From the NCBI GenBank assembly GCA_013115135.1, contig JABANP010000165.1:1-64000 (forward strand): DNA of 64,000 nucleotides, written 5' to 3'. This DNA comes from Perkinsus olseni (lineage: Eukaryota; Perkinsozoa; Perkinsida; Perkinsidae). Of the stretch, positions 11,248 through 42,802 are shown one piece after another. Under the pieces are notes generated by a model. The model had not been told where the DNA came from and did not search any database. It saw only the letters and a program-made list of their open reading frames with translations. Within the stretch, counting starts at the first letter, position 1; every line of letters begins with the position of its first letter. The translations under genes and the position numbers were made by a program.

Positions 11248-12450
11248 TCCAATGACAAGATTTACTGAGGGCACAGGGACTTGGAAGAGAAGGATCGACG
11301 AGAGCTGGAGGCAAGCATGGAAGTTGGGTAGAATGATTATCAATAGAAGCTTTCCTTATACGTCGTGCTGTACAGGGTATAATCGCCACGTCTCTCATCA
11401 CAAAGGCCGCCGCCAGCTGTCTTCACGCCAATTATACGCAATGGTGGGCTTCAAAAACTCACCGGAGTGATCGTGGACCACGTTCTAGTTCGAAAAGTAG
11501 TTCACTGAACGACCCCGAAATTCAAGGGGTTGGAGAGCATGGAATCGCGGAAGGAGGCGTTGGAAGGAGAATGTTCACGCATGGACTTATCTCACACGAC
11601 CCCCACTGAACAGATTTCACTAAGTGGTCCTTGCGACTGAGGACATTTCCCATGCGACGGCAGCTTAGGGACGGACGGTCAGTCTTCAGGGAGCACTGGG
11701 CTTGAGCGACTACTTGAGAGAGAACCAGGGACAGAGCTCGAACTCCACGGGAAAAGACTTTCTCGCAAACAATTCTACTGGTCACTGTTAGTCTTCGAGT
11801 TGCCGGGCTGCGAGTGCTGTTGCACAGTTGCCGCTTGCGTTTTTTTGGTGCAACGGGCGAGCGGCCGGCCAATAACCCGATGCCGTAAACCTTCCCCGGT
11901 TCGATCCGCACACGCGCCATTTAGCGCTACTGGACATTAGGTTGAATCTAATAAGAGTTCTTCCTTGTAACGCGAGAGGGCAAGTCGGGAGAGTGCGGCG
12001 CTCAGATGAGGCCACGCTGACCTATGCTCAAGGCGTGGCTACCGGCCTGTCTCATGGCGCCATTTGAAGCAATTGTGCCGCACAATTTGTGCGAATACTG
12101 AGAGAAAGCCTTTCGAGGCTGGCCGCTTCGTTGAGGGCCCTAGGCTGAGGGGCTATTTGGCAAGTGTCCATTTGAAGCAGTTCATGTGAGACCCGTTGAA
12201 TCGGACCTCAAGTGAGTACTCAGCGTCAGCAGAGATCATGTGGAATTTGTCACTCGTGTTAGAAATTCGGCCTGTGTGCACGCTCGCGCCAGCCTCTGCC
12301 TCACGGTGACGTGACGCTTGAGGGATTAGTTATCTTCCTGTTCATCGTCGTTCTTAGCGTGGGCAACCCTCAGTCGTCCGCATATCCGTCGCCCTCGCGT
12401 GGTTGGCTCGTCGTCGACAACTCTCCTTCAGGCACACCCTCATCTTCCTA
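11248..12450. other. Intergenic region between aminopeptidase B and copy 3
   Basis: Upstream region of two divergent genes. It contains a plus-strand aminopeptidase exon relic (12009-12160, listed separately) and a TCACGGTGACGTGAC motif at 12301-12315, 136 bp before the copy 3 start. Nothing else is identifiable. Confidence 0.45.
12009..12160 (+). pseudogene. Aminopeptidase exon 6 fragment, inverted relative to the genes
   Basis: The plus strand here aligns closely with the coding sense of aminopeptidase A exon 6, the part encoding ...LTYAQGVATGLSHGAI...EKKAFEAG. It is broken by an in-frame TGA straight after the SHGAI equivalent and by small insertions, and the reading frame is lost. It is about 150 bp long and has no flanking exons. 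The orientation is opposite to both functional genes and the same as the secreted family. Confidence 0.75.
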
Positions 12451-17800: not shown

Positions 17801-20800
17801 TGCGTAGGCACTCGAGTCTAACTTCCACTTCGCACTCCTCACTCAACGCACAGTCCACAACTCGCTCCTCGAAGTCCTCCGAGAAGTGCTCGGCAAGGGC
17901 TCGCCAAGCCAGTCGACGGGTAAGGACCGTGTTTCCCGCATGAGTCAGCGGCCTGAGAGTGTCTCTAAGCTCCGCAGTGTCAACTGACGTAGCATGCAGA
18001 AGCCACAGGGAACCGGTGACCATGAAGTGGCAGGCCGTCCCACAGTTAGCCATCGGGCGAATAACATAGGGGACGATTCCGAGCTGCAGGACATCGGTGC
18101 TGACAACATTCGGACCTAGATGAATCACCATAGTGCACAGCAGCCTGACCGAGTGCAGAGTAAGCTCACGCAGACCGTCGGATTGTAGGAGAAGGAGAAT
18201 GAACGGCAACCACAAGGATGGTCTGAAGGACTTCTGCTTCGCTCCGTTGCAGGCCAGGTTGAGCAAGTCTAGGAGGAACTCTTCCGGCACCAAAGACAGC
18301 TGCCTCCGCGAGTCAATAGCCGTGATGATACACTGCATGGCTTCGACCACTTTGTCACGCAGCCTAGGTCCACCCACGGTGAAGGCATGACGAAGCGTCA
18401 TGCTATACTGGCCGAAGATCATCTCCGCTGTTCTCGAAGAAGCTGCAGCGACCTCGAGTGGCGGTCTGGAGGACAGAAGGACGTCCAATTTCCTCTCGTA
18501 AGCCACGCGATGGGCCTCAGGGATGTCAGTCGTTGCATAGCGCAACTCTACTGCAGCATAAGAGTCGCCGCTCCAGTGGTACTCTTCGTCTTCGAAGCCC
18601 ATCGCCATTAGTTGGCAAGCAGCCTTGGCTCTGTCTGATAGCTCCTCAGGTTGTTGCCCAGCGGAGGCGTGCAGAGCGCGGAAGTCCTGATAGGCTTCTA
18701 TTGAGACGGACTGCAGCACTGAGGCGACCAACTTCTCAACCGATTCCGGCCGATGATGGTAGAGTTGAGGGTCCTGGAAACGAGAGACACTTCGAGCGCG
18801 CAGAGATACGAGCATAGCCCTAGGATTGACATCAAGTATTTTCACACACCATCCGATGTTCCGCGCATGATAGCAACTTGATAATTTCGTTATCCGCTTC
18901 GTGAAGAGTGCAGGATGAAAACACTCATGATCGATAGTGAGCGGCGCGAGGCGCTGTCAGGAATCTCTAGGCCCCTCTTCACATTCGGACCGCTGCTGCA
19001 ATTACTGGAAAAGTCAACACTGGATGGGGGGACCGATCCTTCGGCTACGCAGCTGAAGGAGCCCTTCCAGAGACTCACCAGCGACCAGCTCTTGAGATGC
19101 TCCACAAGCTTCTCGTTCCTCTTCCTCTGCACAAGGACATCTCTCGACATGACCAGCAACTCCGAGCACAAGTCAAAGACAGCCAGCCTCGTCGGCGTCC
19201 ATGCCCTCACCAAGCTCAGCACTGCTGATGCCTGAGCGATGATAACTCCGACAACCCCGACTGCCTCTGGCTTACCTCGTAGTACTCCGACGGGCAGAAG
19301 TATCGGGCCAGAGCGTCGGCAACAAGATCCAAGTACTCGATAATCTCGTCCCGAGCAAGGCCGAGATCGTAGAAACATCGCCTACAGAAATCTTTCTCCC
19401 TCGCGCTACGGCCTGGCGACTCCAACGAGACGTAGAAGCTTCGCTAGAGTATCGGCTCACATCGTGGCTCCCTTCTCGCCATGCTGAAGGATCTCAACAG
19501 CGGTCTTAGCTGACCGATGCAGGGCGCCGCACAGTACGGCCGCCGAGGAGCTGTGCACTATGGCGCTGACGACTGCGACTAGTATGAGATGAATCGTCGG
19601 GATACAAGGCTCCACGGACAGCCTGAAGGATGGGAGATTTCCCGAATCACTCGAGGCCCGCCGTACTTTCCGTTTAGTTTCAGTTTTTTCTCGAGCCCCA
19701 GGAGAACCGCGTGGAGCGCTTCAGACACTAGCTTGCACGTTGGGTCCTCGGCCCTCGCGTCCTGACCCTCGATACCGATTCGACGAACCGTATCCGGCTG
19801 AACTCACCTCTGGCTGTTCGATGTTGTCCGCCAGTGCTGCCACCAAGGCCTCCACAACCAGCACACCAGGTTTGCTGAAGAACACCTCCGGAGGGTAATC
19901 GTAGACCATCAGATATCGGACCTAGCCCGAGTTCTTCGGTGACGGGAGATCAGCCAGCTCACCTCGTTGAGGGCAGCTACACGCTTGCTCCGCCCCACAC
20001 TCGAATACTTTATCCTACACGACGCTTCGAAAAGACGCCTCTCATCTGATCATCAGCGATGCTCACTAGGCCGGGAGTCTAGGAGTCCCTGAAGAACTGA
20101 CCGGCACTAGAGACGGCAACCAGTTCGATCCAACTCGGTCGAGTCTTGGCGGCCTCGGCCTCCACAGCAGCGTGGCCGGGAGGCGGTCGGGGAGTCTTGG
20201 GTGGCCGCTGGACGACTGAGGACGATGGGCACGTTTGGCTCAGAAGACACGACAAGGCAGCGTCGATCTCCTCAGCGTATCTGCTCATACCATGGATGAT
20301 CAGAGGCAACCACGGAAGGACGATACTCACCGGGCTTCAAAGCCTCGGAAATCCTCGAAAAAATCTATCGCTCCGCTAGAGATGAACCTATTAAGGCGCT
20401 CCTCCCGGGCAATGGATACGTGGGGTTGCACACTGGGTCCACAGTGCTCAGCCAAACGACGCGTGAAGTCCTTACCGCTCTCTTAGATGGGCATTCTCAG
20501 CAACACAAGTGGCCACGACTGACGTGTAGAATTTGATAAAGGACTTAACAAGGTCTGTGTGGGCTGTCCTATGGCGATCGTTCAACCAGTGTAGCGCCAG
20601 CTGTGGGAACTCTACGACTCCTGAGAGATGAGCGTCAGGGCTGGTAGAAGAATCTTTCGACCTTACGAGCAACAGTAATGGGGCTGGTCAGACCAGTGGA
20701 AGTCTTGGTCATCAACGCTCTCACTGCGCGATCTCGCACATCATCAAGTTCATGGCCAAGCTTCATGCAAAGTTCATAAATGGATGCCGCCTGGCGAGTG

Positions 20801-20823
20801 TCGTCCTTCTCTGTAGCAGCCAT
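14864..20823 (-). CDS. RTTN: Rotatin-like armadillo/HEAT repeat protein (many exons)
   Basis: Exon 1 (20823-20667) contains KLGHELDDVRDRAVRALM, matching the conserved N-terminus of rotatin (KLGHEL followed by an IRERAL-type helix). Exon 2 starts at 20620 after a 46-bp intron. A later exon has RFISSGAIDFF, matching rotatin's L-GAVEFL segment, and is followed by an AEIDAAL-like helix. Rotatin is a long helical-repeat scaffold needed to build centrioles and basal bodies. Further visible exons include helices near 19960-19990 (KRVAALNE), 19800-19909, 19260-19400, a large one at 17586-18845 (about 420 codons of helical repeat, ending at a GTAGGC donor), 15600-15500, 15470-15310, 15285-15065, and a last one ending in TAA at 14864-14866. 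The start ATG at 20823 was chosen because the longer frame begins at TTG. Intermediate exon borders are not fully resolved. Confidence 0.7.
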
Positions 20824-21319
20824 ACTACTATTCCAGTGAATGCACGCTACGAAGGCCGCCAAGCCTGCATCAATGAACTGTCTAATACCGATGGATCATG
20901 ACTCAACACAAACCGCAATGGATCGACGGAAATCGCATCTTGCCGGTTCAAGTCATCTGTCATCAAACGATGCGATTCCCGTCCCGCTGTACCGGCAGTA
21001 TACTAATTAGCAACTAGTGGCATTCGATGAAAGGAATCAAGCCGGCCGCTTAGGCGTTCAGAAATAATATCCTTGGCAGTTAGCCCGCAACATACGCCGA
21101 GGCATCTGGCTGCTGTATCATCGCAAATTCCCGTCGATCTCATCTTCCCCTTCGAACTTCATTCTCGTCAGCTGATCAGAATTCGGAAGAGTGAAGAGTC
21201 TCTGCAGACTACGCTTGTACTGTGGTGAGTACTCGAAGGTATCTTCCAGAATTTCTGGTCACCAGAAACCACAACCAGCCTGGGCGCCCACATGCAACAA
21301 GGGCAACGCGTACTCTTCT

Positions 21320-21342
21320 GGCTGAGAGTCTCAGCCTGAGAC
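21320..21342. repeat. Direct-inverted-direct microinsertion (unit 1)
   Basis: Unit 2 has a single GGCTGAGAC at 24524-24532. Unit 1 has that motif, then its reverse complement, then the motif again. Confidence 0.75.
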
Positions 21343-21590
21343 CTGACAGCAACAAAAGAGTGACCGTCAGTTGGATGGGTCCCTTAGAAGGAACGAACAT
21401 CGCGTGCTGCGTAGGGTATTCCCATCCTTGCGCCGAAGGGAGCTCATCAGTTCCCGTGTCCGGGTACAAAAGGACAGGCGGCGAACTCGCACCAATCATC
21501 TTTGAATCACAGAGTAGGCATGTAACTTCTCATGTCTTCAGCAGTCGCATACTACAGTAGACGCAGGGGCCCTCTCAGAGACTTTAAATT

Positions 21591-21611
21591 GCGCCAATGG
21601 CGCAGCGCCAT
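21591..21611. repeat. Direct-inverted-direct microinsertion (unit 1)
   Basis: A single GCGCCA in unit 2 (24785-24791) corresponds here to GCGCCA, ATGGCGC and GCGCCAT in a row. Confidence 0.75.
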
Positions 21612-21739
21612 CATTTATCTTCAAGTGAGCTGTTGTCAAGGCCTAGTGCCGTACCGGCATCCGCGAAACTCAGATGTGAATTCCCGAGTATAATTGAAGC
21701 GAGCTTTAAGGATCCTCCTAAGTCGATGCTCTGTCTCGG

Positions 21740-21761
21740 TAGCCGAGTCGGCTAAGCCGAC
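21740..21761. repeat. Direct-inverted-direct microinsertion (unit 1)
   Basis: Unit 2 has TAGCCGAC at 24921-24928. Unit 1 has TAGCCGA, GTCGGCTA and AGCCGAC in succession. Confidence 0.8.
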
Positions 21762-21913
21762 AAAGACGTTATGTCTGGTTCGACCATTGCCGACAGAGGC
21801 CGCTTCTGTAATTATTGGCGCGCGCCACTTGGCACCGCGCTGGCGTCACGGTGACCAAACTTCATTGACCACAGGAATGGGGTTTCTTTGTTCATTGCGT
21901 TTATGCTCGTGTC

Positions 21914-22063
21914 ACGCTCGAGGATCGGTCGGGAATGCACGGCCAGTAGTGCATCATTGATCCGGAGATGACCGAAGCGTCTCCCCTACGTGACGGTTCA
22001 TTCGCTGGGTCGCCTCGTTGGAGCCCGGTCTCGTCTGTGTTAGCTGTCAGGGTAGAATATATC
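21914..22063 (+). promoter_or_regulatory. Conserved upstream block, copy 4
   Basis: About 150 bp from GCTCGAGGATCGGTCGGGAA through CCAGTAGTGCATCATTGAT to TGTTAGCTGTCAGGGT is shared with the blocks before copies 5 and 6. It ends just before the start codon, so it is the likely promoter or 5' leader; recent duplication alone could also explain it. Confidence 0.5.
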
Positions 22064-22075
22064 TTCGCTCCCCCT

Positions 22076-22912
22076 ATGATGAGCTTTGTTCCGACTTGGC
22101 TGATGGTAGCTCAAGCTCTGGTCCTCACCACGACGGCTCAAAAAGTCGGCACGTTTGTTTACGGGGCACGAACTTTCAATTTCACCTACAAGGTGGACGA
22201 GAAGCACCAAGTTACGTTCAGCTACGACGGTTTTCCTGGACCTTGGTGGTGGAATCCTGACGACTCCAGTCCTACTACAGGTTTGCTCAGCCATTACAGC
22301 TCCGGTCCGCAACCGTTGGCGCAGGTTGGACCTTCCACTTACACCATCGACTTCAAAGACTCTGAGCTCGGGGCTCGTGCCTTTCATAATGATGTCGAGT
22401 ATTCACTAAGTAACCATGGCGTGATAGAGCGTGATGATCCTGATGATAGCATTCAGCCGAGCGACTTGATTACCCTGAAGTACGAGAGCGCTGATTCTAT
22501 CTCAACCAACTTCCTTGGTGTAAAGATCCTCTTCATGAGAGTTGGGCAAAGCTGGTCGGCGGGGAAGTTCGAGTACAGGTCGCCTGACCGTCCTAGGTTC
22601 AAGCTGGTTTACAAGATACGCGATGATGGGGATGTGAAGATACGGCCTAAGTGCGGGAGGCGTGGCACCCATCGGTTCCGTTTCAAGCTGTCTGAACGCC
22701 TTGGGCAGCAGTGGACTTCCAAGTACTATGTTTTGGAGGAAGTTGAAAGGAGGAGATCGCACGACCGATTACATGATCTATTAAAGTATGTGAAGCATGT
22801 CTGCCCGGGCAAATCTTTGAAAGCGGACGACCTCGAACAGGTGGTCGTTGCCAGTAGTAATACGATCTACGTACAATTCGAAGGAGATCTTCTCACTCTC
22901 ACCAGAGTCTGA
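22076..22912 (+). CDS. Secreted family, copy 4 (278 aa)
   Basis: Starts MMSFVPTW with signal peptide to TTAQ; an in-frame ATG at 21968 would add 36 residues that hide the signal peptide and is not conserved in copy 5. The N-module has FNFTYKVDEKHQ, a tryptophan-rich insert (PWWWNPDD), GPQPLAQVGPSTYTIDF and FLGVKILFMRVG. The C-module has FKLVYKIRDDG, CGRRGTHRFRFKLSERLG, VKHVCPGK and TIYVQFEG. It pairs with copy 5 in the duplicated unit and differs from it throughout, with both frames kept open. Function unknown. Confidence 0.85.
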   Translation: MMSFVPTWLMVAQALVLTTTAQKVGTFVYGARTFNFTYKVDEKHQVTFSYDGFPGPWWWNPDDSSPTTGLLSHYSSGPQPLAQVGPSTYTIDFKDSELGARAFHNDVEYSLSNHGVIERDDPDDSIQPSDLITLKYESADSISTNFLGVKILFMRVGQSWSAGKFEYRSPDRPRFKLVYKIRDDGDVKIRPKCGRRGTHRFRFKLSERLGQQWTSKYYVLEEVERRRSHDRLHDLLKYVKHVCPGKSLKADDLEQVVVASSNTIYVQFEGDLLTLTRV

Positions 22913-22916
22913 GTGG

Positions 22917-22938
22917 TCGATGACATCGACTCGATGTC
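22917..22938. repeat. Direct-inverted-direct microinsertion (unit 1)
   Basis: Unit 2 has a simple TGTCGATATCC at 26057-26067. Unit 1 reads TCGATG, ACATCGA, CTCGATGTC. Confidence 0.65.
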
Positions 22939-23487
22939 CTCGACTGGCTTGAACAGCATCGTGCGGTATACCACCGACTCTTCTGTTGACTTTCCCCTAT
23001 CACTACTTTCGAATTTTCTAGCCAGTCGCCAGGCCACCTGTTCTACCATCGGGATGGAATTCTAATCCGTCTTCTGAAGGCGAGCCGGCCCAACTCATTA
23101 TCATCCCTCTCATCTCCTCATTTCGCATAGCCTATCACCGGCCTGTGATTACGTCATAACCCGGCGATAACATCCCGTATTATGGATTCTGCTATCGTGG
23201 ATGGGCCGATAGACTATTATTATTATAATGGTAACACAGTGTACCAAATTAAGACTTCTATCATCGAGCATAGCCAAGCATTCCTTGGTCCGTTCATTCA
23301 TTCCCTCTTACCCTTCTGGCCGAGGTTACCCAGTAAACCATGTCTCTTGCGTTAGACAAGTTGCCAGTAATTCCGAAATTACATGCAACCTGGGAGGCCT
23401 CCTCTCGATGGTACAGGCCTTGGCCTTCGAATCATTCTCCTCGACGAGCAGCCCTTTCCCGCAGGAAGAGGCTTGAGGGCGGCCAGC

Positions 23488-23512
23488 TACACCACGGGTG
23501 TAGCACCCGTGG
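23488..23512. repeat. Inverted microduplication (unit 1)
   Basis: Overlapping palindromes CTACACC/GGTGTAG and CACGGGTG/CACCCGTG stand where unit 2 has only TTACAGCCGTGG (26548-26559). Confidence 0.7.
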
Positions 23513-23869
23513 TTCGGGATATGAACACTCGTCGCCACGGCCAATTAGCCGAGATGAACATTTTCAAGACGTTGTTTCCCATTCCAATGGAGACGGAAAT
23601 TTCAGTAACTTTCTCCGGAAATTGACTGAAATTTCCGACGGCTCTGAAATTTCCTGGATGCGTGCACCCCGATTGTGGTGTGTTTTGGGGATCTTCCACA
23701 GTCGATGCTCTGCTGCTCTAATCCCACCATTCCCGACAAGATCAGCTGCTGTAACTGCTAGCAGAACCCGTCTCCCCACTCCAGGGTTCGCTTAGGGAAC
23801 CCGAGTTCTCCCCGAGCGTGAGCGTGCTAAAGGACTTCTCTAGCTCGAGCTCTTCGGGAAGCGGGGACC

Positions 23870-24013
23870 AGCGGCCTCACCTCGTTGAGGGCAGCTACAC
23901 GTTTGCTCCTCACTGCGCGATCTCCCACATCATTTGAGTTCATGGCCAAGCTTCATGCAAAGTTCATAAATGGATGCCGCCTGGCGAGTGTCGTCCTTCT
24001 CTGTAGCAGCCAT
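23870..24013 (-). pseudogene. Rotatin exon fragment, chimaeric and frameshifted
   Basis: The minus strand repeats rotatin exon 1 from its ATG (24011-24013) to the DRAVR segment. One base is inserted just after GHEL, so TGA follows two codons later. It then jumps to the SKRVAALNE segment of a downstream rotatin exon including its GTGAGG donor. The joint is inside both exons, so it is a genomic deletion or template jump, not a spliced product. Confidence 0.75.
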
Positions 24014-24307
24014 ACTACTATTCCAGTGAATGCACGCTACGAAGGCCGCCAAGCCTGCATCAATGAACTGTCTAGTACCGATGGATCATGACTCAACACA
24101 AACCGCAGTGGATTGACGGAAATCGCATCTTGCCGGTTCAAGTCATCTGTCATCAAACGATGGGATTCCCGTCCCGCTGTACCGACAGTATTCCAATTAG
24201 CAGCTAGTGGCAATCGATGAAAAGAATCAAGCCGGCCCCTTAGGCGTTCAGAAATAGTATCTTTGCCAGTTAGCTCGGAACATACGCCGAGGCATCTGGC
24301 TGCTGTA

Positions 24308-24329
24308 TCATCGGCGATGATTCATCGCC
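24308..24329. repeat. Direct-inverted-direct microinsertion (unit 2)
   Basis: Unit 1 has only ATCATCGC (around 21117-21124). Unit 2 reads TCATCG, GCGATGA, TTCATCGCC. Confidence 0.8.
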
Positions 24330-25060
24330 AATTCCCGTCGATCTTATCTTTCCCTTCGAACTTCATTCTCGTCAGCTGATCAGAATTCGGAAGAGTGAAG
24401 AGTCTCTGCAGACTACGCTTGCACTGTGATGAGTACTCGAAGTTATCTTCCAGAATTTCTGGTCACCAGAAACAACCACCAGCCTCGGAGCCCACGTGCA
24501 ACAAGGGCAACGCGTACTCTTCTGGCTGAGACCCGACAGCATAGCAACAAAAGAGTGACCGTCAGTTGGATGGGTCTCCTAGAAGGAACGAACATCTCGT
24601 GCTGCGTAGGGTGTTCCCATCTTTGCGCCAAAGGGAGCTCATCAGTTCCCGTGTCCGGGTACAAAAGGACAGGCGGCGAACTCTCACCAATCATCTTTGG
24701 GCCACAGAGTAGGCATGTAACTTCTCGTGTCTTCAGCAGTCGCACACTACAGTAGATGCAGGGGCCCTCTCAGAGACTTTAAATCGCGCCACCATTTATC
24801 TTCGAGTGAACTGTTGTCAAGGCCTAGTGCCGTACCGGCATCCGCGAAACTCAGATGTGAATTCCGGATTATAATTGAAGTGAGCTTTGAAGATCTTCCT
24901 GAGTCGATGCTCTGTCTCGATAGCCGACAAAGACGCTATGTCTGACTCGACCATTGCCGACAGAGGTCGCTTCTGTAATTATTGGCGCGCGCCACTTGGC
25001 ACCGCGCTGGCGTCACGGTGACACCGAAGTTCATTGACCATAGGAATGGGGTTTCGGTGT

Positions 25061-25210
25061 TCAGTGCCACACTCGAGGATCGGTCGGGAATACACGGCCA
25101 GTAGTGCATCATTGATCCCAAGATGATCGAAGTGTCTCCCCTAGGTGGCGGTTCAATCGTTGGGTCGCCTCGTTGGAGCCCAGTTCGTCTGTGTTAGCTG
25201 TCAGGGTTGG
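25061..25210 (+). promoter_or_regulatory. Conserved upstream block, copy 5
   Basis: Counterpart of the block at 21914-22063 (same GATCGGTCGGGAAT and CCAGTAGTGCATCATTGAT cores), ending at the copy 5 start. The related GTCACGGTGAC motif lies about 40 bp upstream, at 25011-25022. Confidence 0.5.
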
Positions 25211-25229
25211 TTACATCTCCACTTCTCCT

Positions 25230-26054
25230 ATGGTGAACTTCGTCCCGACTCGGCTGCTGGTAGCCCAAGCCCTGGTCCTCGCCACGACGGCTCAAAAAGT
25301 CGGCACGTTTGTTTACAGGGCACAAACTTTCAATTTCACCTACAAGGTGGACGAGGAACATAAAGCTACGTTCAGCTACTCGGGGTTTCCTTGGTGGTGG
25401 AATCCTGACGACTCCGGTGATAGTACAGGTTTGCTCAGCCATTACAGCTCCGGTCCGCACCCGCTGAGGCAGGTTGGGCCTTCGACTTATACCGTTGACT
25501 TCAAAGGATCTGAACTCGGGGCTCGTGGCTTTCATGATGCTCTCGAGCATTCTCTAACCACTCATGGAGTGATCGATGTTCCTGATGATGGCATTCAGCC
25601 GGATGATTTGATCAACTTGAATTACGAGAGCGTTGACTGTATCTCAACCAACTTCCTTGGTGTAAAGATCCTTTTCATGAGGGTGGGGCACAGCTGGTCG
25701 GCGGGGAAGTTCGAGTACAGGTCGCCTGACCGTCCTAGGTTCAAGCTGGTTTACAAGATACGCGCTGATGGGGATGTGAGGATACGAGTGAAACGCGGAA
25801 GGAGCGGTACCCGTCGCTTCCGCTTCAAGCTGTCTGAACGCCTCGGGGCGCAGCGGACCTTCAAGTACTACGTTCTAGAGCAAGTCGAGAGGAGGAGATC
25901 GCACGATCAATGGGATGACCTATTGAAGTATGTGAAGCGTATCTGCCCGGAAAAATCTTTGAAGCCGGGTGACCTTAAACAGCTGTTCGTTGCCAGTGAT
26001 AATACGATTAATGTACAACTCGAAGGAGATCTTCTTACTCTCACCAGAGTCTGA
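25230..26054 (+). CDS. Secreted family, copy 5 (274 aa)
   Basis: Starts MVNFVPTRLLVAQALVLATTAQ; the open frame extends upstream but without an ATG. Architecture matches copy 4: FNFTYKVDEEHK, WWWNPDD insert, PHPLRQVGPSTYTVDF, FLGVKILFMRVG, FKLVYKIRADG. In the C-module the first conserved cysteine is replaced by arginine (VKRGRSGTRRF where copy 4 has KCGRRGTHRF), while the second remains (ICPEK). If the two cysteines normally pair, the bond is lost here. The frame is intact and the end is the usual LTLTRV. Function unknown. Confidence 0.85.
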   Translation: MVNFVPTRLLVAQALVLATTAQKVGTFVYRAQTFNFTYKVDEEHKATFSYSGFPWWWNPDDSGDSTGLLSHYSSGPHPLRQVGPSTYTVDFKGSELGARGFHDALEHSLTTHGVIDVPDDGIQPDDLINLNYESVDCISTNFLGVKILFMRVGHSWSAGKFEYRSPDRPRFKLVYKIRADGDVRIRVKRGRSGTRRFRFKLSERLGAQRTFKYYVLEQVERRRSHDQWDDLLKYVKRICPEKSLKPGDLKQLFVASDNTINVQLEGDLLTLTRV

Positions 26055-26580
26055 GTGTCGATATCCTCGACTGGCTTTTTCCTAACACCACTTTCGAATA
26101 TCCTGGCCGTTCGCCAGAATGCCTGATCTACCATCAAAGTGGAAATCAAATCTGTCTCCTGAAGACGAGCCGATTCTTAAACCAAGTCGTTCCTTCATTC
26201 ACCTTCGCCTCCTCGTCTATATAGCCTATCGCTGCCTATGATTACCTCATAACTAAGCGATAACATCTTGTATTATGGATGCTGCTATAGTAGACGGGTC
26301 AATCGACAATTATTGTTATGAAGGTACCACAAAATACCAATTTAAGACTTCTATCATTAAGCCTAGCCTGGCATCTCTTAGCCCGTTTACGCTAACCCTC
26401 CAACGAGGTTACGCAGTGAACCGTGTCTCTTGCGTTAGTCAAGTTGCCCGTAGTGGGGGGCCTCTTATCGATGGTACGGGCCTTGGCCTTCGCATCACTC
26501 TCCTCGAAGAGCATCCTTTCCGCAAGGAGAGGCTTGAGAGCGGCCAGTTACAGCCGTGGTTCGGGATGTAAACACTCGTC

Positions 26581-26640
26581 ACGGCCAATTAGCCGAGTTC
26601 TACATTTTCTGAAAATGTAGACCTCGGCTTACTGGCCGTA
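26581..26640. repeat. 60-bp hairpin (inverted duplication)
   Basis: Arms of about 28 bp with four mismatches around the centre at 26608/26609, each running from ACGGCCA to CTACATTTT. Unit 1 (23537-23566) has only one arm, so the second arm arose after the unit duplicated. Confidence 0.8.
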
Positions 26641-26662
26641 GTATGATTTTCATGACATTGTT

Positions 26663-27607
26663 CAGGGTGGCTGAGATTAGTCCCGCAGCACCGTGAAATA
26701 TTTCAAGTGAAATATTTCTGAATTTTTCAGAAATTTTCTGAAATTTTCTGAAAATTTTCTTCAAAACCCATTTTAAGCGATTCCGAGCCGGTTTCATAGC
26801 ACTTTCGACTCATATGGGCTCTCAGGCTTGTGGGTGGTAGCCACTGGATACTATCTAGTCTGGCCGATAGTGCGTTCCCAGCTTGTGCAGTAGGTAGAAG
26901 AGCTGTTCTTGAAGAGCAGCGGGGCGGGGCGCGCGCCACGTATAATGAGTGCTACGTGCATTTTGCACTAATTGTGCTATCACCGATGCGGTACAGTTCC
27001 GGTCTGGTATTCCTCAGTAGTTGTTCCCACTAGGTCTGTAAGCGTCATCGTCGCTGGGGGTGGCCGGGTTCTCCGGTACCAAGGATAGACCGAACCTCCA
27101 CACACGCACAAGACGTTGCTGCATGATGCAGCAACGTCCGTGTGATACTAGGGAGCATTTTTTCAATAAAATTGAAAAAATTCGAATATTTTTCAACAAT
27201 TTTCAAAATTTTCAGTAAATTTTCAGAGACGCATCTCTGAGGTGGACTACCTCACCGAAAATCCCTCCCAGGTGGTCCACCTGAGGTGGAGCACCGGCCG
27301 GCTCCTCGAGCAAGAAGGCGCTGCTGACAAAGACGAAGAAACTTCCTAGACGTTCGGAATTTGAAGTACGAACTCGGATCCACGTGCTTACAATCTGTGA
27401 ATGAGTTGTACTGAGAAATCTACTGCACTGTTTGTGTTGAGTATCGGCAACTTGACGGGAAATGGCCAAAAACGGCCGAAATAGGCCAAAATCGCTAAAA
27501 TTTCATCAAAAGTGAAAATTTCACTGAATTTTTTCCGGTGAAATATTTGAAATATTTCACTGAAACTTTCTTGAAATATTTCACTCTGAAATATTTCAGC
27601 CACCCTG
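26663..27607. mobile_element. Non-autonomous hAT-like element (945 bp)
   Basis: Terminal inverted repeats CAGGGTGGCTGA at 26663-26674 and its reverse complement at 27596-27607. It is flanked by a perfect 8-bp target duplication ACATTGTT (26655-26662 and 27608-27615). An 8-bp duplication with CAG-starting ends is characteristic of hAT transposons. The interior is AT-rich with many GAAATATTTC-like motifs near both ends and a 12-bp-arm hairpin at 27112-27138. No transposase is encoded. The equivalent place in unit 1 (23569-23576) is unoccupied. Confidence 0.85.
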
Positions 27608-27768
27608 ACATTGTTCACATTTCAAAAGGGAAATCGCTTTGGGAACAGAAATTTCAGCAAGTTTTCCCAGAAAGCTGACTGAAATTTCCGACGGCTCGGA
27701 AATCTCCTGGATGTGTGCAACCCGGTTTTGGTGTGTTTTGAGAATTTTCCAGAGTCGATGCTCTGCTG

Positions 27769-27790
27769 GTCTGGGCCAGACCGTCTGGCC
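27769..27790. repeat. Direct-inverted-direct microinsertion (unit 2)
   Basis: GTCTGG, CCAGAC, GTCTGG in succession. Unit 1 (about 23714-23722) has no such structure. Confidence 0.6.
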
Positions 27791-28883
27791 CACCATTCCC
27801 GATGAAGACCGCCGTTTTAAATACTAGCCGAAGCCGTCGCACCGCTCCGGGGCTCTCTTAGAGAACCCGACTTCTCTTTAAGCGTAAGCGAGCTCGAGAA
27901 CTGCTGTAGCTCGATCACGCTCGGGGGTATACGCAGTTTGTATGGGGAAAGTGAGACTTACTTGAGACGGTAGGTAGTTCAATGGAATGAGAAAGCACTG
28001 AAGGAACAGAACATCGCTCTCCAGATTGCTCATCGGATGAGACAATAGTCGAGGCTGAAGACGCAAGGGGTCACAACTCGTGATTCACTAGCGAATAATT
28101 AAATTATTATAATTTGCATTCTGTAGGCTAGGATGTCGAATCTGCTTGTTGTCATGAGCAGAGCATGATTTCATGTAGACTTATTCATGACTCAATAATC
28201 ACGAGAACTTAGAATAGGTTGAAGAAGGCAACAAAGTCAGCTTCCGCGAAAAAATATCGTTCGAAGTTGAAGTAGCGCGTCATGAGAAGGAATCCGAATG
28301 CCGTGTTCATATCACGTAGTTTCATCGGCGATGAATCATCGCTCTAACGAAGAATGTTGCCAAGTTGGCGATGCCAACCATGAGGCTGCTCAGCATATTG
28401 CTATGAGCAGTACTTGTGCCTGCACCCTTGCGGTACAAGTGGAACTTACAATATCACTTCTGCGTGCCCTCAGGTGGACTTCGTTGTGCATACATTGCTG
28501 TCTCTGTATACGACAATTGTGCGTGGGAGGACAGTGACATCCGACGGGCTTTATGGTTATGTTTACTCTCCCTCAGTGAAGGGTGCATAGATAGACAGCA
28601 GTCAACATAACAGTCCAATCAATAACAAGAACATACGTGAAAACTGAGTGAGGCTGAGTGAGTAGAACATATTTCGCGGATCTATATTCTAACACTGCTA
28701 TTCTCGACAGGACCTTCCCGTGGCCTTAGTTCGGGGAAGCGGTGAGGAAGACTCAAACTGGTTCGACTCGAAGTTCTGTTCTCGGAGGTGGTCATGGAGC
28801 GGTTTATACTGCATGAATCATGGGGCTGCACATGGCGTGTGCATGAATCATGCACATTCAATGAGAACATGAACAATTTGAGC

Positions 28884-28948
28884 CTTATAGTGGCCACGAG
28901 GTCAATGGCCTCAAATTTTGAGGCCATTGACCTCGTGGCCACTATAAG
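28884..28948. repeat. Perfect 65-bp palindrome
   Basis: Two 32-bp arms with no mismatch around a single central T at 28916. If transcribed it would fold into one long perfect hairpin. It lies in a gene-free spacer. Confidence 0.9.
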
Positions 28949-29992
28949 TACTGTGTTGCTATCTGAGACGGGGCCCAAAGTATGAGAAAAGTGATCTCGC
29001 GGAGCATTTGGGATGGATGTATGCTCACTAGCCTGACGACGGATGCACGTGTTCGCCGGGCTGAACGGATGCACAGCGAACGAAGGCGCATGCACAACAG
29101 TGAAAACATAGTGACGACTATAGTGTACGCTATGTAACAGCTACAGCCTGGTTAAACACTACTCAGCTGTTAGACTACCATAGCTACTCTTGCCTTACTA
29201 ATAGTAAGGCGTAGTAAGTTCCAATGCGCTTTGCACTAGCGTCCATGAGCATACGTGCTACACTAAGCTAAGCGTAGTAAGCTGTAGTGCTCATTATCGC
29301 TGCGCTCCCCTCGAGCCCAATCTTACCTTCCTTTGAGCCCCGTCTCAAAAAGCCACAGTGTACAGAGTGTTATGCCTGCGAGTTGCAGAGGGTAGAAACT
29401 GGCTTGAAGCCAGTGGCTTCGTTTCGCCTGTTTCGGTTCGCCTGCATCTTGCCTCGCGGCGCCCTTGTCCATTTACTGTAGGTGGCTGCGCTGTGCGCAT
29501 GCGTGCACTGCAGCTTGATATACGGCCCGAGCCAGGGAAGATTAGGATTGGACTTAACGGTTCTTCCCACGCACAGTCATTTAGAATGTATGACGTTGTT
29601 GCCTCTCCTACTGGGTCTTAGTCACCGAATCATTCTCGTAGATCTTTTTTGCCTGCGAGGCTACTCTTCGAGTGTCGTTGTGTTTCTCTAGTAGTGGATA
29701 GGTAACAAGAGTTATAGCGCAAACAGAAAGAGCAAGGTGGGTACGCAGCAGCAATAAAGGTAGTTGTCACTATAATGCAGAGGTGTACTCGTGCGACGGA
29801 ATTTCGAACTAACGCGATGTCAAATGCCCTTGTCTGAATCCCGTGCCCTCAACTCGACCGGTTAACAGTCAGAAATCAACAGGCACTAGCTGTGATCGCT
29901 ATGCTAAGTACTAGCTAGCTACTAGCTAGCTAAGGCTTAGCTCAATCCGAAATCATTCATTGCGTTCAACTTTGTATCACGTTCGAGGCGTG

Positions 29993-30017
29993 GTCGGGGA
30001 ATTCCCGACGGGAATTC
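29993..30017. repeat. Direct-inverted-direct microinsertion (copy 6 leader)
   Basis: GTCGGGGAATTC overlaps GAATTCCCGAC and CGGGAATTC, where copies 4 and 5 have a single TCGGGAAT. Confidence 0.75.
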
Positions 30018-30094
30018 ATGGCCAGTAGTGCATTATTGATACTGAGTGGCGGCTCAATCGTTGAACGGTCTCGATTGAGCCCGGTCTCGTCTGT

Positions 30095-30116
30095 GTTAGC
30101 TCAGCTAACTTAGCTG
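30095..30116. repeat. Direct-inverted-direct microinsertion (copy 6 leader)
   Basis: GTTAGCT, AGCTAAC, TTAGCTG in succession. The copy 4 leader has a single GTTAGCTG at 22039-22046. Confidence 0.8.
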
Positions 30117-30260
30117 TCAGGGTAGGACAAACCTCCGCTACTATCGTCGTCATCGAGCCCTCGCTTCCCATCGGATCTTCGACGACTATCTCGTCTTCCG
30201 GCGTGATGCTCTTCGCGTCAGCTTCCGAGTACATTTGTGGCCGACATCTCCACTTCCCAA

Positions 30261-31121
30261 ATGATGAACTTTCCCCTAAATTGGTTGGTAATGAATCAAG
30301 CCCTGGTTATCGTCACCACGGCTCAGGATGTTGGCAAGTTTGTTCACGAGACGGCAGACTACCGTATAACCTACGATGTGAATGAGAACCATCAAGCTAC
30401 TTTTACTTTCTGGGTTCCGAGTCCACCTGGAAGGTGGTCCCCGGACAGGAGTTCTTACAGCTTCAGTGTCGTTAGGCAACCACATGAGGAGTTCACCCAC
30501 GGGCCATACCCCTTGTCAAAGACCGACACTTTTACCTACGCCGTCGAATTTGATGGTTCAAGAGCCAGTGCTCATGATTGGTATAAGTCCATTGAGAGGT
30601 TACTGCTGAGGAACAACGTCATTGACAACGATCATCCCGAGCGGTATGGTGGTGTTCAGCCTGGGGACTTGTCCGTTCTGACTTATACGAGCGGTGACGC
30701 TTTCTCAACCTCGTTCCGAAATGAAGAAATCAAGCTCATGAGGGTGGGAGGCAGCCTGATTCCGGGCTTGTTTGTGTTCAAGCAGAAAGTGGCTCCCTAT
30801 CTCGAGGTTCGTTACAGAATACATCTTGACGGGCGTGGAGATATGAGGTTTAAGTGCAAGAAGCGTCGAACCTCTCATTTAAGTTTCAAGCTTTCCCGCC
30901 GCACGAAGGGTCTGTTATACGATCACTATGCTGTGGAACCGGCCGGTGGTGGTACCTTATATCAATTCCTCCACCAGGTCAGGGCTGTTTGCCCGACCAC
31001 ACATTTGGATGCTGACGACCTATCGAAAGTGGTCTTCGCCACTGAGAAAACTATCTTCGTGACACTTGGAAAGGCTCGCCTGGCTCTCACCTCCTCGGCT
31101 CTCTCTATCGGAGGTGCGTAA
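30261..31121 (+). CDS. Secreted family, copy 6 (286 aa)
   Basis: Starts MMNFPLNWLVMNQALVIVTTAQ; the longer open frame begins at GTG and is not needed. N-module: FVHETADYRITYDVNENHQA, a PPGRW insert, GPYPLSKTDTFTYAVEF, DWYKSIERLL, LTYTSGDAFSTSF. C-module: YLEVRYRIHLDG, FKCKKRRTSHLSFKL, AVCPTTH, TIFVTLG. The 3' end is extended (SSALSIGGA) past the usual LALT ending. The remnant at 41500-41731 and truncated copy 10 are closest to this copy and to copy 9. Function unknown. Confidence 0.85.
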   Translation: MMNFPLNWLVMNQALVIVTTAQDVGKFVHETADYRITYDVNENHQATFTFWVPSPPGRWSPDRSSYSFSVVRQPHEEFTHGPYPLSKTDTFTYAVEFDGSRASAHDWYKSIERLLLRNNVIDNDHPERYGGVQPGDLSVLTYTSGDAFSTSFRNEEIKLMRVGGSLIPGLFVFKQKVAPYLEVRYRIHLDGRGDMRFKCKKRRTSHLSFKLSRRTKGLLYDHYAVEPAGGGTLYQFLHQVRAVCPTTHLDADDLSKVVFATEKTIFVTLGKARLALTSSALSIGGA

Positions 31122-33885
31122 CCAGTTCATTTCTACTTTTGTCTTTTCCTCTTTTTTGCGCGCCGCTTGCTGCGCAGAACGTGCTGACATGTATGAGCCT
31201 TGTGGCTCCCTGTCCAATGCCTCGGGCGCTGCTTCAGCAGATACACGAGGAAGACTATTATCATGGTATCAATGACAGACTTCTATCACTCAGCATAGCT
31301 CACGAGGTCATTCCGCCTTGTCACCTGAGCCCTCTGCTGTGCGCAGTAGCTAAGACTTTCTCAAATCCCGTATTCCATGCCATTTGCGTTCTACGAGTTG
31401 GGCCTCGTTCGCTACCAATCCGAATAAGGTGGGGCCGCCAACGCCACAGTATAGCATCTTGAGTCTTCGCAACCCGAATCGTCGGGGTTCCAGCGAAGGA
31501 GCGTTTGATAGTCAATGCATTCTTTTCTGTCTGGACCAGACAGTCTGGTGCAAGGCACTGTGCTGCAGCTCTTCGATGATTGTACTACAATCATAGAAGC
31601 TCACAATCATTGTAGGCAAAGGCGTATACTAAGTATGCTGTACTTCTATGAGCAGTGGCAAATATTTTCGTTGTTCCGAGTAAGTAATCTACCCGACAGG
31701 TTTTGCAGTCCGATAATCAGACTGCAAAACCTGTCGGGGATATATTCAATCCGATAGAATGATGCACAGACAATCCTCCACTTCTAAGGTGCCCTTGCCA
31801 GCAATTCCCCGGGATTCGCGATTCGCCGAAAATGAGAAGTATGAGGATCACGTCAAGTGACATTATGGTGTTACACTATCAACGCAACTTCGGAATTCGC
31901 AGGATCCGATTCAGGATAGGCTGAAAAACGAGGAGTGGGCGAGCCCGACGGGCTCAGTATTGTCTGATGGACTTCAAGGTCAGGGACGATCATCCCATTG
32001 CGACATAACACCTAAGCTTCAAATCTTCTTCTAGTTCATAACTTGATTGTGTTGTACTTCGTTTACTGATCAAGGGACTCGGCGAAAGACTCCTAAGAGT
32101 GTTTAAACAATATCAACATTGAATGGCTGATGCCTCAGAGTGTCCTCCGAAGTCGGGTACAGGGAGGCTTCCTGAGGGAGCGAGACACGGAGGGGGCACT
32201 GTGAAGTATCGGGGTGGGCTTAGCAGAACCGGGGGAAAAAAGAAGTCGATGTAGACAAGTCTGAGTGGTTCTTGATGTCACAGTAGTTCTGGAAGGCCTT
32301 AATCCCAAATACTTGGAACTCGAAGTCAGAGGTGTAGTAGTTGAAAGGTTGGGTTGCAGAGATCAAATACCACGTAGGAGGAGTCCCACAGCGGCAGCAA
32401 ATGAGTAAACTCGTACTAGAGTCTCTCTCCTCACTCGAAATCTCAGCTTAGGGGGCCCCCCAAAAAATGAAACGGCTGACGGTTATATGTAGACAACTGA
32501 GGCGCGCGCCAACTACCGTGCGCGGCCCCCTCGAACCAGCGGTTCGTCACAGCACTGTCCCGGATCAGGTCCTGGCGCCGTATATTTCGCTACATTTACT
32601 TGTCGGCACCGTCGGTGCTGAGCTCAATGATGTCTCCGAGAGGACCCATCTCAGATGGGCAAGGTGCTGCCCCAACCGGCATCAGTAAGGTCACACAGGT
32701 CTCACGACGGCAGCAAGGGTAACACAAGAGCAGACTTTCCCGCGGCTCAAGGCAATGCTATGAATGGCAATCGGCATTTGGCAGGCACAAGTAACTTGTG
32801 ACAAGTTACCTCTCGAAGACCCGAGGTCTTAGTCTAAGCCTCTGCTTCCTCAAAGCGATGTCTTTGACTCTTAGACCTCGCTTCAAGAGAAAAGAGAGCG
32901 TCGGGCGGGCGACTCCCGTCCGCTCAAATCGTTATCGAGCATTCGACGGCTCGAACACGGTGCTCTGGCACTATTCTGCTAGCGTCGGAGGAACACTGGG
33001 ACACGAGGTGCCCTATTGTGCGTACAACATACCGCTGCATCTCCTCGCATCGGTTTTAACCTAGAAAAGCCACTGGTTTATCTCACACGAGAAACACAAG
33101 GCCAGGGGGAGCTTGTGGAATGAAAATGGAATATAGCTGATGCCCAGACCACCCTGCACGCATAAGCACGGACGGGCGAAACAACACGGAGTGAGACACG
33201 GACTGGGACACTGTCCCGGACCACGTCCAGGCGATCGTCCCATATATTTGGCCACATTAACTCGTCGGTCGGTAGTGTCGGCACCGTCAACGACGGTTCG
33301 CCGGTACTGAGGTGAGCTCAATCAGATCAGTGAGCGGTGAGTGGGCGAGTCCCACCGTGGGACTCCCACGGGGTCAATTTCAGCTGATGAAGTTCGTCGC
33401 CAACGAGGATTGGTCACTCTCGACAAGAGTCTCGTCCCATGGCAGCATAACACCCATGCTTCAGATATTCTTCTGGTTTTCTAAGTGATCGCGTTGTAAT
33501 CCGTTTACTGACCAAGGGGCTCGACTAGAGACCCTCAGATCATGCTTCGACCGTTAAGTATGCTTTTCCTCCCTCTCGGTTCCCGGGAAACGTCCGTGAC
33601 GCCGTGACTTATGGCGCCAGCCTGGCGCCGCCAGGTTCCCGCGTGACGCACGCGGCGTGCGACCCGCACTCGCACGGTGCAAGTATAGCTGAAACTAGGC
33701 CAAATAATTGAGTGTCTCTCTCCCCACGGGTGAAATTGCCTTATTGAACCTCATTGGCCGCCGATGATTGGCGCTAGAGCGATCGAAAAACCTACCGTTG
33801 AGAGGATCAGAGCCTCAGGGCCTGAGGCTCAGGCTGCTGGTCATTTTTCCTCCCGAGTTTCCTCAATCGCTTTTCTTCTCTTTTC
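31122..33885. other. Spacer between copies 6 and 7
   Basis: No gene is supported. The conserved downstream element lies at 31253-31300. Hairpins lie at 31528-31552 and 31692-31738. Two related modules carrying CACTGTCCCGGA...TCGGCACCGTC near 32555-32630 and 33205-33300 also occur around the minisatellite at 42.2-42.5 kb. A stretch at 33077-33160 recurs inverted near 46500-46580. From about 33560 the sequence aligns with the copy 8 upstream region (42530-42800), including a CGTGACGCCGTGAC-type motif at 33595-33608. Confidence 0.45.
31692..31738. repeat. Perfect hairpin, 19-bp arms
   Basis: Arms 31692-31710 and 31720-31738 are exact reverse complements around a 9-nt loop. It lies about 570 bp downstream of copy 6; a role in RNA 3' ends is possible but not shown. 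Confidence 0.85.
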
Positions 33886-34776
33886 ATGAGACACCCCACC
33901 TTGCCCTGGCTACTAGTCGCTCAGGCTCTGGTCATCACGGTGGCTCAGGACGCTGGCAAGTACGTCCACGAGAACAGAGATTTCACTATGACTTACTATG
34001 TGTACGAGGACCACAAAGTCGATTTTGCCTTCACGCTGAGTGGCGAACCCGAAACAAGTCGTCCCAATAGCCGGTCTGCGATTTACTCGTTCAGTCCCGG
34101 AGCTTTCTACGTCGCGTGGCCGTTCCCGTTAGCAGAGGAGGCGAGCTCTGTGTACACCCTCCACGACGATCATTCTCATCTGAGTTTTGATGACTGGTAT
34201 AACACAATCAAGTTCTTGCTAGCAAACGCTGGCCTTGTCGAGCCCGAAAATCTCAACCCTCTGGCGGAGATCCAGCCTGGGGACTTGGCCACCTTGACTC
34301 ACTACGGCAAGAACTCTATCACCACGAGCTTCCGGAAAAGAGAGCTCAGGTTTTTGCGGGTGACGCCTACCCTGACACCGGGTGAGTATGTCTACGAGGG
34401 ACCTCTCTTCACTATGACTTACGATGTGAACGAGGATCATGAAGTTACATTCTCGATCTATGTCCCTGAGCCTCCGCTACGTAGGGGTGATATACCTCAA
34501 GCTGCTTCTATTTCCCTTGGCCCGTATCCTTTACGGAGTGTTACCGGTTTCACTTACACCCTCGGCTTCGATAAGGCTGGGCCCGACGCGCTTGATTGGC
34601 GTGTGGAGCTCGACCGCTTCTTCAGAAACACTGGACTGATGGATTATGACGAGTCCTACCCATCTGCACCTAGCCAGGAGTGGGATCTCACGGTTGTAAC
34701 CTACACGAGCGGTCACTCTATCGTAACCAACTTCCAGGAGGAGAAGGTGGAGTTCAAGAGGGTCACACGCAACTAG
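33886..34776 (+). CDS. Secreted family, copy 7 (296 aa, two N-modules)
   Basis: Signal peptide MRHPTLPWLLVAQALVITVAQ. It then has two successive N-type modules: residues about 24-170 (FTMTYYVYEDHK ... PGEYVYEG) and about 171-296 (FTMTYDVNEDHE, GPYPLRSVTGFTYTLGF, DWRVELDRFF, VVTYTSGHSIVTNF, KVEFKRV). The C-module with its two cysteines is absent; the gene stops where the second module's PGEYVY motif would start. The second module is more like copy 1 or 2 than like the first module of the same protein, suggesting a fusion of two genes. It is nearly identical to copy 8. Confidence 0.85.
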   Translation: MRHPTLPWLLVAQALVITVAQDAGKYVHENRDFTMTYYVYEDHKVDFAFTLSGEPETSRPNSRSAIYSFSPGAFYVAWPFPLAEEASSVYTLHDDHSHLSFDDWYNTIKFLLANAGLVEPENLNPLAEIQPGDLATLTHYGKNSITTSFRKRELRFLRVTPTLTPGEYVYEGPLFTMTYDVNEDHEVTFSIYVPEPPLRRGDIPQAASISLGPYPLRSVTGFTYTLGFDKAGPDALDWRVELDRFFRNTGLMDYDESYPSAPSQEWDLTVVTYTSGHSIVTNFQEEKVEFKRVTRN

Positions 34777-34961
34777 GCGCTGGGTGCATACGTGATCGAG
34801 GAAATGTGCCCCTAACCACGATACGCAGCCTCAAGTGGTGTGATACATTTTCATTTCTTGAACACGGCGGAGTAACATTATGATAATAGCGCTTGACTCA
34901 CAACGAGAAGTCCATCCTCGAGATGGAAATTTTGTGATATACGAGGTCGGTTATGCTCCTC

Positions 34962-34983
34962 CTCCGCAATGCGGAGTCCGCAT
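34962..34983. repeat. Direct-inverted-direct microinsertion (3' of copy 7)
   Basis: CTCCGCA, ATGCGGAG, TCCGCAT in succession, where the copy 8 flank has CTCCACAGG (43893-43901). Confidence 0.75.
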
Positions 34984-35015: not shown

Positions 35016-35211
35016 TCGGAGTTAGCTTGCTAGCGAAAGTTAGATGTGCAGCGCAGAACAAAGCCCGCGGAGGTGGGCCACGAAGTGGCACACACACACA
35101 AGGAGACAGACCGCAATTGAATCGGCTGCCCACGCTAGGACACAAAGGTGTCCCAAACCAGGAAGGAGTGCAAAGCACGATCAATAGTTAACGTCAAGCT
35201 GAAGAAATTTT
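35016..35211 (+). repeat. Split direct repeat A1 (196 bp)
   Basis: Matches 40055-40250 at a constant 5,039-bp offset, from TCGGAGTTAGC to AAGAAATTTT. It ends two bases before the ORF1 start codon, so it acts as leader and probably promoter. Confidence 0.9.
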
Positions 35212-35213
35212 CC

Positions 35214-42416: not shown

Positions 42417-42802
42417 GGCTTTCCCCGTATATTTTGCCACATTAACTCATCGGCACCGTCTGTACTGAGCTCATAGTCCCGTTTCTCCTCTGCATTTAAT
42501 GCAGTGCATTACGTCACGAACAATAACCATGCATTTCCTCCTCCTCGGGTCTCGGGGAACCGTTTCACTGAAACGTCAGTGATGTCGCGACTTGTGGCGC
42601 CAAGCACGCGCGTGCGAGTTGGTTTGATCGAACACTGTATAGCTGAAACCAGAGCAAATCTTTGAGTTTCCCACATCGACGAAGGCAGAAGAAGTTGCCT
42701 CCCTGAACTACAATGAGGTATCAGTGATTGAAACCTCCCGATGAGACTCTCATGAGAGGCTTTCCTCATTAGCTTCTGCCCATTCAGTCCCTTCTTTTCT
42801 TG

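Follow-up and report, generated by a model that had tools for sequence, protein, structure and literature searches.

The genome of Perkinsus olseni, a parasite of clams, carries a short structural mark of fixed form, which we analyzed in a 64-kb window (the whole stretch presented here, on contig C74) and elsewhere in the same 61.5-Mb assembly of 968 contigs. At each site, an 8-bp target (T8) is replaced by 22 bp consisting of bases 1-7 of T8, the reverse complement of T8, and bases 2-8 of T8, a net gain of 14 bp. Judged from sequence comparison, these scars are very probably the excision footprints of hAT transposons, formed by insertion of an element followed by hairpin formation on its flanks. 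The window has 24 exact scars and five first-order Markov shuffles of it have none, in agreement with the very high density proposed in an earlier note on this DNA. That note described insertions in which a segment X is followed by its reverse complement (X') and by X again. Ten of its 13 listed sites are exact T8 structures, so the insertions are real; X was given there as about 6-10 bp long, and the unit is instead fixed. Two more of its sites, 23488 and 29993, are variants that conserve the length, while 44436-44475 holds a cluster of palindromes with a more complex structure. Fourteen exact scars in the window lie beyond its list.

To describe the geometry, exact X-gap-X'-gap-X structures with 6-bp arms were listed and nearby sites merged. 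This first pass found 30 sites in the window compared to 0-1 in each of ten shuffles. Most have a 6-1-6-1-6 spacing and, when written out, each of those is the T8 structure. The other clearly enriched geometries are shifted readings of T8 sites, with overlaps of 24/25, 24/25, 24/24, 11/12, 5/5, 11/11, and 5/5. Two short geometries are separately in mild excess, (6,2,3) with 10 versus 2-5 and (7,3,3) with five versus 0-1. When 20 stretches of 10 kb were added to the window to give a 264-kb sample, 80 exact scars were found (79 or 77 depending on the rules for overlap and low complexity) against a chance expectation of about 0.001 (264,000/4^14). A wider scan of the sample for X-X'-X sites with at least 11 matched arm bases yielded 101 sites. 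Of these, 86 have a net gain of 14 bp, 79 being canonical and seven variants; one shuffle gave three sites, none of them at 14. All seven variants (7/86) have an inverted middle 1-3 nucleotides (nt) longer and keep the net gain. Inverted tails of 1 and 2 nt are near chance in the sample (19 and 24 versus 16, and 10 and 5 versus 4, respectively), and those of 5-7 nt occur 0-1 times each, compared to 80 for the full 8-nt tail.

Alignment of the scar flanks to paralogous sequences revealed the plain T8 at many window scars. The comparison included two units with the bounds given in the earlier note, unit 1 (20716-23868) and unit 2 (23869-27915), and contig C291. The latter runs alongside the window for about 17 kb (~25-42.5 kb in window coordinates), is 96% identical where measured, and is possibly another haplotype of the region; private scars are found on both the window and C291 sides. 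Indels were counted in split alignments with the hAT element left out. Unit 2 and C291 (96% identity) differ by 132 substitutions and eight indels of at least 5 bp, five of which are scars (one appears as a 9-base gap with a neighboring change). Units 1 and 2 are 88% identical, and their 13 indels of at least 5 bp include five exact scars and one variant. The claim that many longer indels between paralogues are of this form holds, and the process is recurrent since each unit has private exact scars. Those at 21590..21611 (T8 TGCGCCAT), 21740..21761 (TAGCCGAC), and 22916..22937 (GTCGATGT), the last directly 3' of the stop codon of a 314-amino acid (aa) frame, are in unit 1 and absent from unit 2 and C291. 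Conversely, the scar at 24307..24328 (ATCATCGC) is in unit 2 and absent from unit 1 and C291. The scar at 21321..21342 (GCTGAGAC) is in unit 1 and, with one change, in C291 but not in unit 2. Unit 2, the one without the scar, is closer to C291 than unit 1 is; either gene conversion or parallel excision with an identical product could account for it. The two length-conserving variants are at 23487..23510 (inverted middle of 10, arms of 7 and 7) and 29994..30017 (middle of 10, arms of 5 and 9), both with a net gain of 14 bp.

Other scars in the window also have informative counterparts. C291 is scarless at 27768..27789 (GGTCTGGC) and 28094..28115 (AATAATTT), and C291 and both units are scarless at 30095..30116 (GTTAGCTG). 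The scars at 28321..28342 (TTCATCGC), 33349..33370 (GTCCCACG), and 33813..33834 (CCTCAGGC) are also in C291, and its copies have the length of a scarred site at 29399..29420 (CTGGCTTC), 31528..31549 (TGTCTGGT), and 42490..42511 (CTGCATTA). At 32786..32807 (CACAAGTT) C291 retains the left part and the inverted tail and lacks the following 122 bases, and at 33614..33635 (GCGCCAGG) it has a +3 form of the same T8. Scarless copies of the site at 12072..12093 (ATTGTGCG) are within the window at 4368-4467 and 13959-14038, and a 75%-identical copy of the site at 34962..34983 (CTCCGCAT) is scarless at 43774-43923. The scar at 97..118 (CTTCTCCT) is common to the window and contig C192; among the 40 of 195 candidates scored, 22 other repeat copies match the scarless length exactly and another two come near it. 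One scar is inside a hAT element (27269..27290, CAGGTGGA). The remaining four are at 45811..45832 (TACTGAAC), 46786..46807 (CTCGGTAC), 49283..49304 (GAGCAAGG), and 50356..50377 (CACGCAAG).

In one repeat family, 14 retrieved copies and a further copy on C14 were compared. Four scars were found, each at its own place: the first is in 9 of the 14 copies, the second (with a changed base) in a single copy, the third in another copy, and the fourth in the C14 copy. The only other insertions longer than 2 bp in the family are two hAT-type elements in the C14 copy, both with 8-bp duplications; there are also two deletions. In a set of 14 scar sites, at least three have a copy of exactly scarless length elsewhere; one such copy is 99% identical and on the same contig.

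The process extends past the window, as the earlier note suspected. The 20 added stretches, positions 30001-40000 of contigs C1-C20 and thus not randomly drawn, have 56 exact scars in 200 kb, with 0-10 per stretch and none in eight of the 20. Scaling from these 200 kb gives a rough figure of 17,000 exact scars genome-wide; more than one haplotype may be included in the assembly. The 264-kb sample has 77 exact scars, 50 that differ by a single base, and 51 that differ by two, compared to 0, 0, and 6 in three shuffles together. As all three classes are in excess, the marks include both recent and old ones. None of the 77 exact scars is in a stop-free frame of at least 300 aa, though such frames make up 11.5% of the sequence. 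Five are in frames of at least 200 aa (19.9% of the sequence) and 12 in frames of at least 150 aa (33.3%). Such avoidance of long frames would be expected if genes did not tolerate a 14-bp shift.

Elements of the hAT type are found in the same sequence. A non-autonomous one is encoded on the + strand at 26655..27615 of the window, within unit 2, with ends CAGGGTGGCT and flanked on either side by an 8-bp duplication (ACATTGTT); the corresponding site in C291 is empty. Nine copies of this element cover at least 933 of 945 bases at 85-100% identity, and all seven copies spanning element positions 1-945 have 8-bp duplications. The flanks of the copies on C834, C91, C288, and C92 recur elsewhere with a plain site at 98-100% identity, indicating these insertions are young or polymorphic. 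On C220 (52806-53292) and C596 (12025-12425) a single hAT insertion is split at about element position 542, with one flank on each half, by either a nested insertion or a rearrangement. We also scanned the 264 kb blindly for target duplications with inverted ends, using one shuffle as a control. For a duplication length of 8, six matches were found versus one in the shuffle. Four of the six are elements ending in CAGGG or CAGTG (CAGGGTGGCC, CAGGGTGGCT, CAGGGTTTGC, and CAGTGTGTTG), in addition to two other matches; terminal repeats of hAT elements begin with CA, and one of the four is the window element. Lengths 5 and 6, for which only counts were taken, gave 38 versus 23 and 22 versus 9, and other element families may exist at these lengths. 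Among the listed matches there was no convincing CAG-ended family at length 7, 9, or 10; one of six matches at length 7 is CAG-ended on one side, and the length-10 match is the window element again.

The genome also codes for hAT transposase domains, with 21 matches over the cut-off for the hAT dimerisation domain (PF05699). One such frame has a DUF4371 match as well; the portion of it that was read is 595 aa long. In the accessible text of a report on Hermes, that hAT transposase makes 8-bp duplications at targets of the pattern nTnnnnAn (PMC10368747). The T8 sequences of the 80 exact scars favor the same bases, T at position 2 and A at position 7 (64/160 versus a background of 0.241, P=6e-6), and 12 scars have both compared to 4.7 expected. 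Beyond T8, the 10 bp on each side of 102 unique T8 sites have almost no sequence in common.

If flanks are sealed as hairpins after losing one base, a surplus of palindromes around a single central base is predicted apart from the scars. We took a census of palindromes in the 264 kb with exact scars removed, comparing spacers of 0-9 nt. Palindromes centered on 1 nt are in excess, including those with arms of 6. With arms of 7-9 there are 115 at spacer 1 compared to 14-28 at each other spacer, with arms of 10-14 there are 18 versus 0-5, with arms of 15-19 none versus 0-1, and with arms of at least 20 there are five versus 0-1. Since only exact scars were removed, part of this excess is mutated or variant scars, which add to the shorter classes; among the 18 palindromes with arms of 10-14, at least three are variants of this kind. 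We also read the ends of hAT elements, using a single threshold of a 1-nt-centered palindrome with an arm of at least 5 within 45 bp. Such a palindrome is at four of six lost element ends (three of five if C378 and C300 are a single event) versus one of the 16 intact ends read. At C378, the right duplication is CGCACAGT, and the left flank reads CGCACAG followed by an inverted tail joined to the element interior, making a palindrome of 18 paired bases around one A. The arms at the other lost ends are 7 at C300 (a relative of C378), 9 at C489, and 5 at C359 left. By eye, the junctions have microhomologies of GC at C378 and CAGC at C270.

Three palindromic sites in the window deserve mention here. 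An odd-centered palindrome at 26599..26621 with an arm of 11, found in the census and by eye, continues imperfectly and is read as an old hairpin-derived scar. The palindrome at 28884-28948 is perfect, with 32-base arms around one T, and is probably a hairpin-derived scar of a long kind. The cluster at 44436-44501, with CCTCCCAG around a G and a 10-base arm at 44481, may represent several overlapping events.

We propose the following path to the scar. Insertion of a hAT element would duplicate 8 bp, giving T8-element-T8. On excision, the transposase would nick each flank one base outside of the element and seal each flank as a hairpin, so that the left top strand would read bases 1-7 of T8 and then the reverse complement of T8 onward, with the right flank mirrored. 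Opening of the hairpins away from their tips would leave 3' tails, the left ending in bases 1-7 of T8 and the reverse complement of T8, and the right, on the bottom strand, ending in the reverse complement of bases 2-8 followed by T8. The duplication makes the ends of these tails complementary to each other across the 8 bases. They would anneal there and, with the 7-nt gaps filled and sealed, the 22-bp scar would result. The gain would always be 14 bp because any opening point allowing the tails to overlap yields one product. If a tail ran past T8 and its mismatched end were extended without trimming, the middle would grow as an arm shrinks and the length would stay, which is the form of the variants. 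Insertion and hairpin formation are strongly supported by the sequence, and hairpin opening and tail joining are inferred from the uniform product and the variants, and the annealing of tails probably proceeds by a microhomology pathway like that of Pol theta. We consider annealing and fill-in of the tails a somewhat better than even proposition. The genome codes for Pol theta, with helicase and family A polymerase domains, and for an SNM1/Artemis-type domain. POLQ-type helicase domains are at C744, C286, and C237, and pieces of family A polymerase are near those at C744 and C286. Plain 6-bp tandem footprints, bases 1-7 of T8 directly followed by bases 2-8, were also considered; the 92 primitive tandems versus 59 in one shuffle are too weak an excess to adopt them.

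The earlier note attributed the insertions to a double template switch, in which the polymerase at a replication fork jumps strand, copies a few bases, and returns, leaving X-X'-X. Short-range template switching is a known class of mutation with this outcome, no fixed length, and no link to transposons. It would make a local X-X'-X without a transposon, and the empty paralogues would look alike under it and under hAT excision. However, template switches should spread over lengths and offsets, whereas 86 of 101 sites have a net gain of 14 bp and 79 have one exact geometry. They also give no reason for the T2/A7 preference or for 1-nt-centered palindromes where element ends were lost, while hAT excision predicts all three: the fixed 8/1/1 geometry, the preference, and the palindromes. 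We do not follow the earlier attribution and find this origin very improbable. That the scars are assembly or sequencing artefacts has next to no likelihood. Palindromes are prone to library artefacts, but the same scar recurs across contigs (unit 1 and C291, the window and C192, 9 of 14 repeat copies), in some cases with internal base changes, and neither the fixed geometry nor the absence of all 77 scars from frames of at least 300 aa is expected of an artefact. A domesticated hAT-like transposase could instead act on chromosomal sites and not on mobile elements, as Kat1 does at the Kluyveromyces lactis mating locus according to the available part of a report (PMC4763223). The genome does have hAT domains, and scars far exceed the intact elements found. 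Against this, the flanks of the 102 unique T8 sites share almost no sequence, and for some intact hAT elements an empty copy of the site is found at 98-100% identity, leaving such an enzyme a quite unlikely source. A version closer to our proposal keeps hAT excision and has the transposase set the 8-nt tail: it would nick each hairpin at a distance of 8 nt from the tip, as it does in spacing its cuts on target DNA, and no tails would need to anneal. The product would be the same, 8 is the hAT target stagger, and it would be clear why tails of 1-7 nt are rare. Openings at other distances, namely the palindrome arms of 21-32 nt, the 18-pair tail at C378, and the variants 1-3 nt past T8, speak against such a fixed nick, and we regard it as unlikely though worth keeping in mind.

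Several observations weigh against hAT excision, or against parts of the path proposed for it. Fifteen of the 101 sites in the wider scan do not have a net gain of 14 bp (nine at 11, one at 12, four at 13, and one at 17, with one each at 11, 12, and 13 in one shuffle). Partial tails are somewhat over chance at 3 nt (6 and 2 versus 1.0) and at 4 nt (2 and 4 versus 0.25). The T2/A7 preference is weak, though significant. No palindrome is at two of the six lost ends, C359 right and C270, and that at C359 left has only five bases and is in a repetitive stretch. There are 80 exact scars compared to four intact elements in the same 264 kb, and no particular element or transposase was tied to any particular scar. 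Among nine intact-element sites (incomplete query, 40 of 61 candidates scored, and the C93 site without an entry; one site rechecked with 7/7 candidates) and 31 scar sites (14 with 27/27 candidates scored and 17 with 40 of 195), none was found to carry an intact element in one copy and a canonical scar in another. The differences of C291 at 32786 and 33614 can be explained as later deletions; at 33614 a 7-bp direct repeat, noted by eye, could have yielded the C291 form. We had considered the two as separate excisions and set this aside as ambiguous, given the possible deletions. Ku has one weak match over the cut-off and classical end joining may exist in the genome. An origin of the scars in the absence of classical end joining is unsupported given the Ku match, and a search for ligase IV, with no match and equally silent controls, was uninformative.

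The window is eukaryotic in character. Six frames of 275-314 aa (21968-22912, 25173-26054, 30237-31121, 33886-34776, 42800-43693, and 46949-47776) look like a tandem gene family; none of them matches a Pfam entry at E 0.001. The first of them (21968-22912) has only four protein matches, three named as P. olseni hypothetical proteins. The 737-aa frame at 36308-38521 has a reverse transcriptase domain, and the 381-aa frame beside it at 35148-36293 has a CCCH zinc finger.

If hAT excision is the correct explanation, the genome holds a natural record of cut-and-paste transposition at genome scale. Donor sites could be found without the element, allowing hAT jumps to be directly counted, dated, and mapped. 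How hairpins are opened and joined would become testable by statistics over many natural events. It would also caution that clusters of short X-X'-X structures need not be replication template switches. We give even odds to a stronger proposal: that hAT hairpins in this lineage are resolved near-deterministically by T8 tail annealing and Pol theta fill-in, leaving a 22-bp mark for most completed jumps, that the genome thereby records perhaps 17,000 past jumps as exact scars (about 40,000 if one or two changes are allowed), and that hAT excision, not replication slippage, is the main source of new non-genic insertions of at least 5 bp.

The plant, yeast, and human-cell reports compared describe other repair outcomes, as far as their accessible portions go. 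Most of the hAT footprints in these portions add no more than a few bases of the flank, making the +14 form unusual. In titles and the openings of abstracts we found no published account of the scar form or of hAT footprints in Perkinsus; most subscription literature, including the main yeast work, lay outside this search and an earlier report is possible. The 8-bp duplications and the nTnnnnAn pattern are shared with Hermes in the available text on it (PMC10368747). For Ac/Ds, cuts at the flanking nucleotide, hairpins, and P nucleotides are described in the consulted sections of two reports (PMC1978519, PMC5873905). The former, which also summarizes Tam3 and maize Ds, details for Ds in Arabidopsis a cut at the flanking nucleotide, a hairpin formed by trans-esterification, hairpin nicking, and microhomology joining, with 11 of 17 footprints identical at the single site studied. 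Like Arabidopsis Ds, the scars point to a hairpin route, and uniformity within a site was already known there. Unlike the few changed or added bases given for Ds in that excerpt, the full 8-bp duplication is inverted here, at scores of unrelated sites. Ds in Candida albicans left 28 different footprints in 128 clones with a longest P insertion of 3 nt, and in Saccharomyces cerevisiae palindromes of up to 20 nt, as quoted, with 47% having arms of at least 3 nt (PMC5873905). P nucleotides from hairpin opening would be common to these yeasts and P. olseni, but the passages at hand describe no dominant full-duplication product. TcBuster shares the hairpin model of donor repair, but in the extract available its donor sites either gain a few bases or lose up to 50 bp (PMC3499496). 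With mPing/Tourist, the likeness is in the target duplication providing the microhomology behind uniform repair; in the portion of that report considered, the duplication is 3 bp, a staggered cut is proposed, and the site is precisely restored with no +14 scar (PMC4561436).

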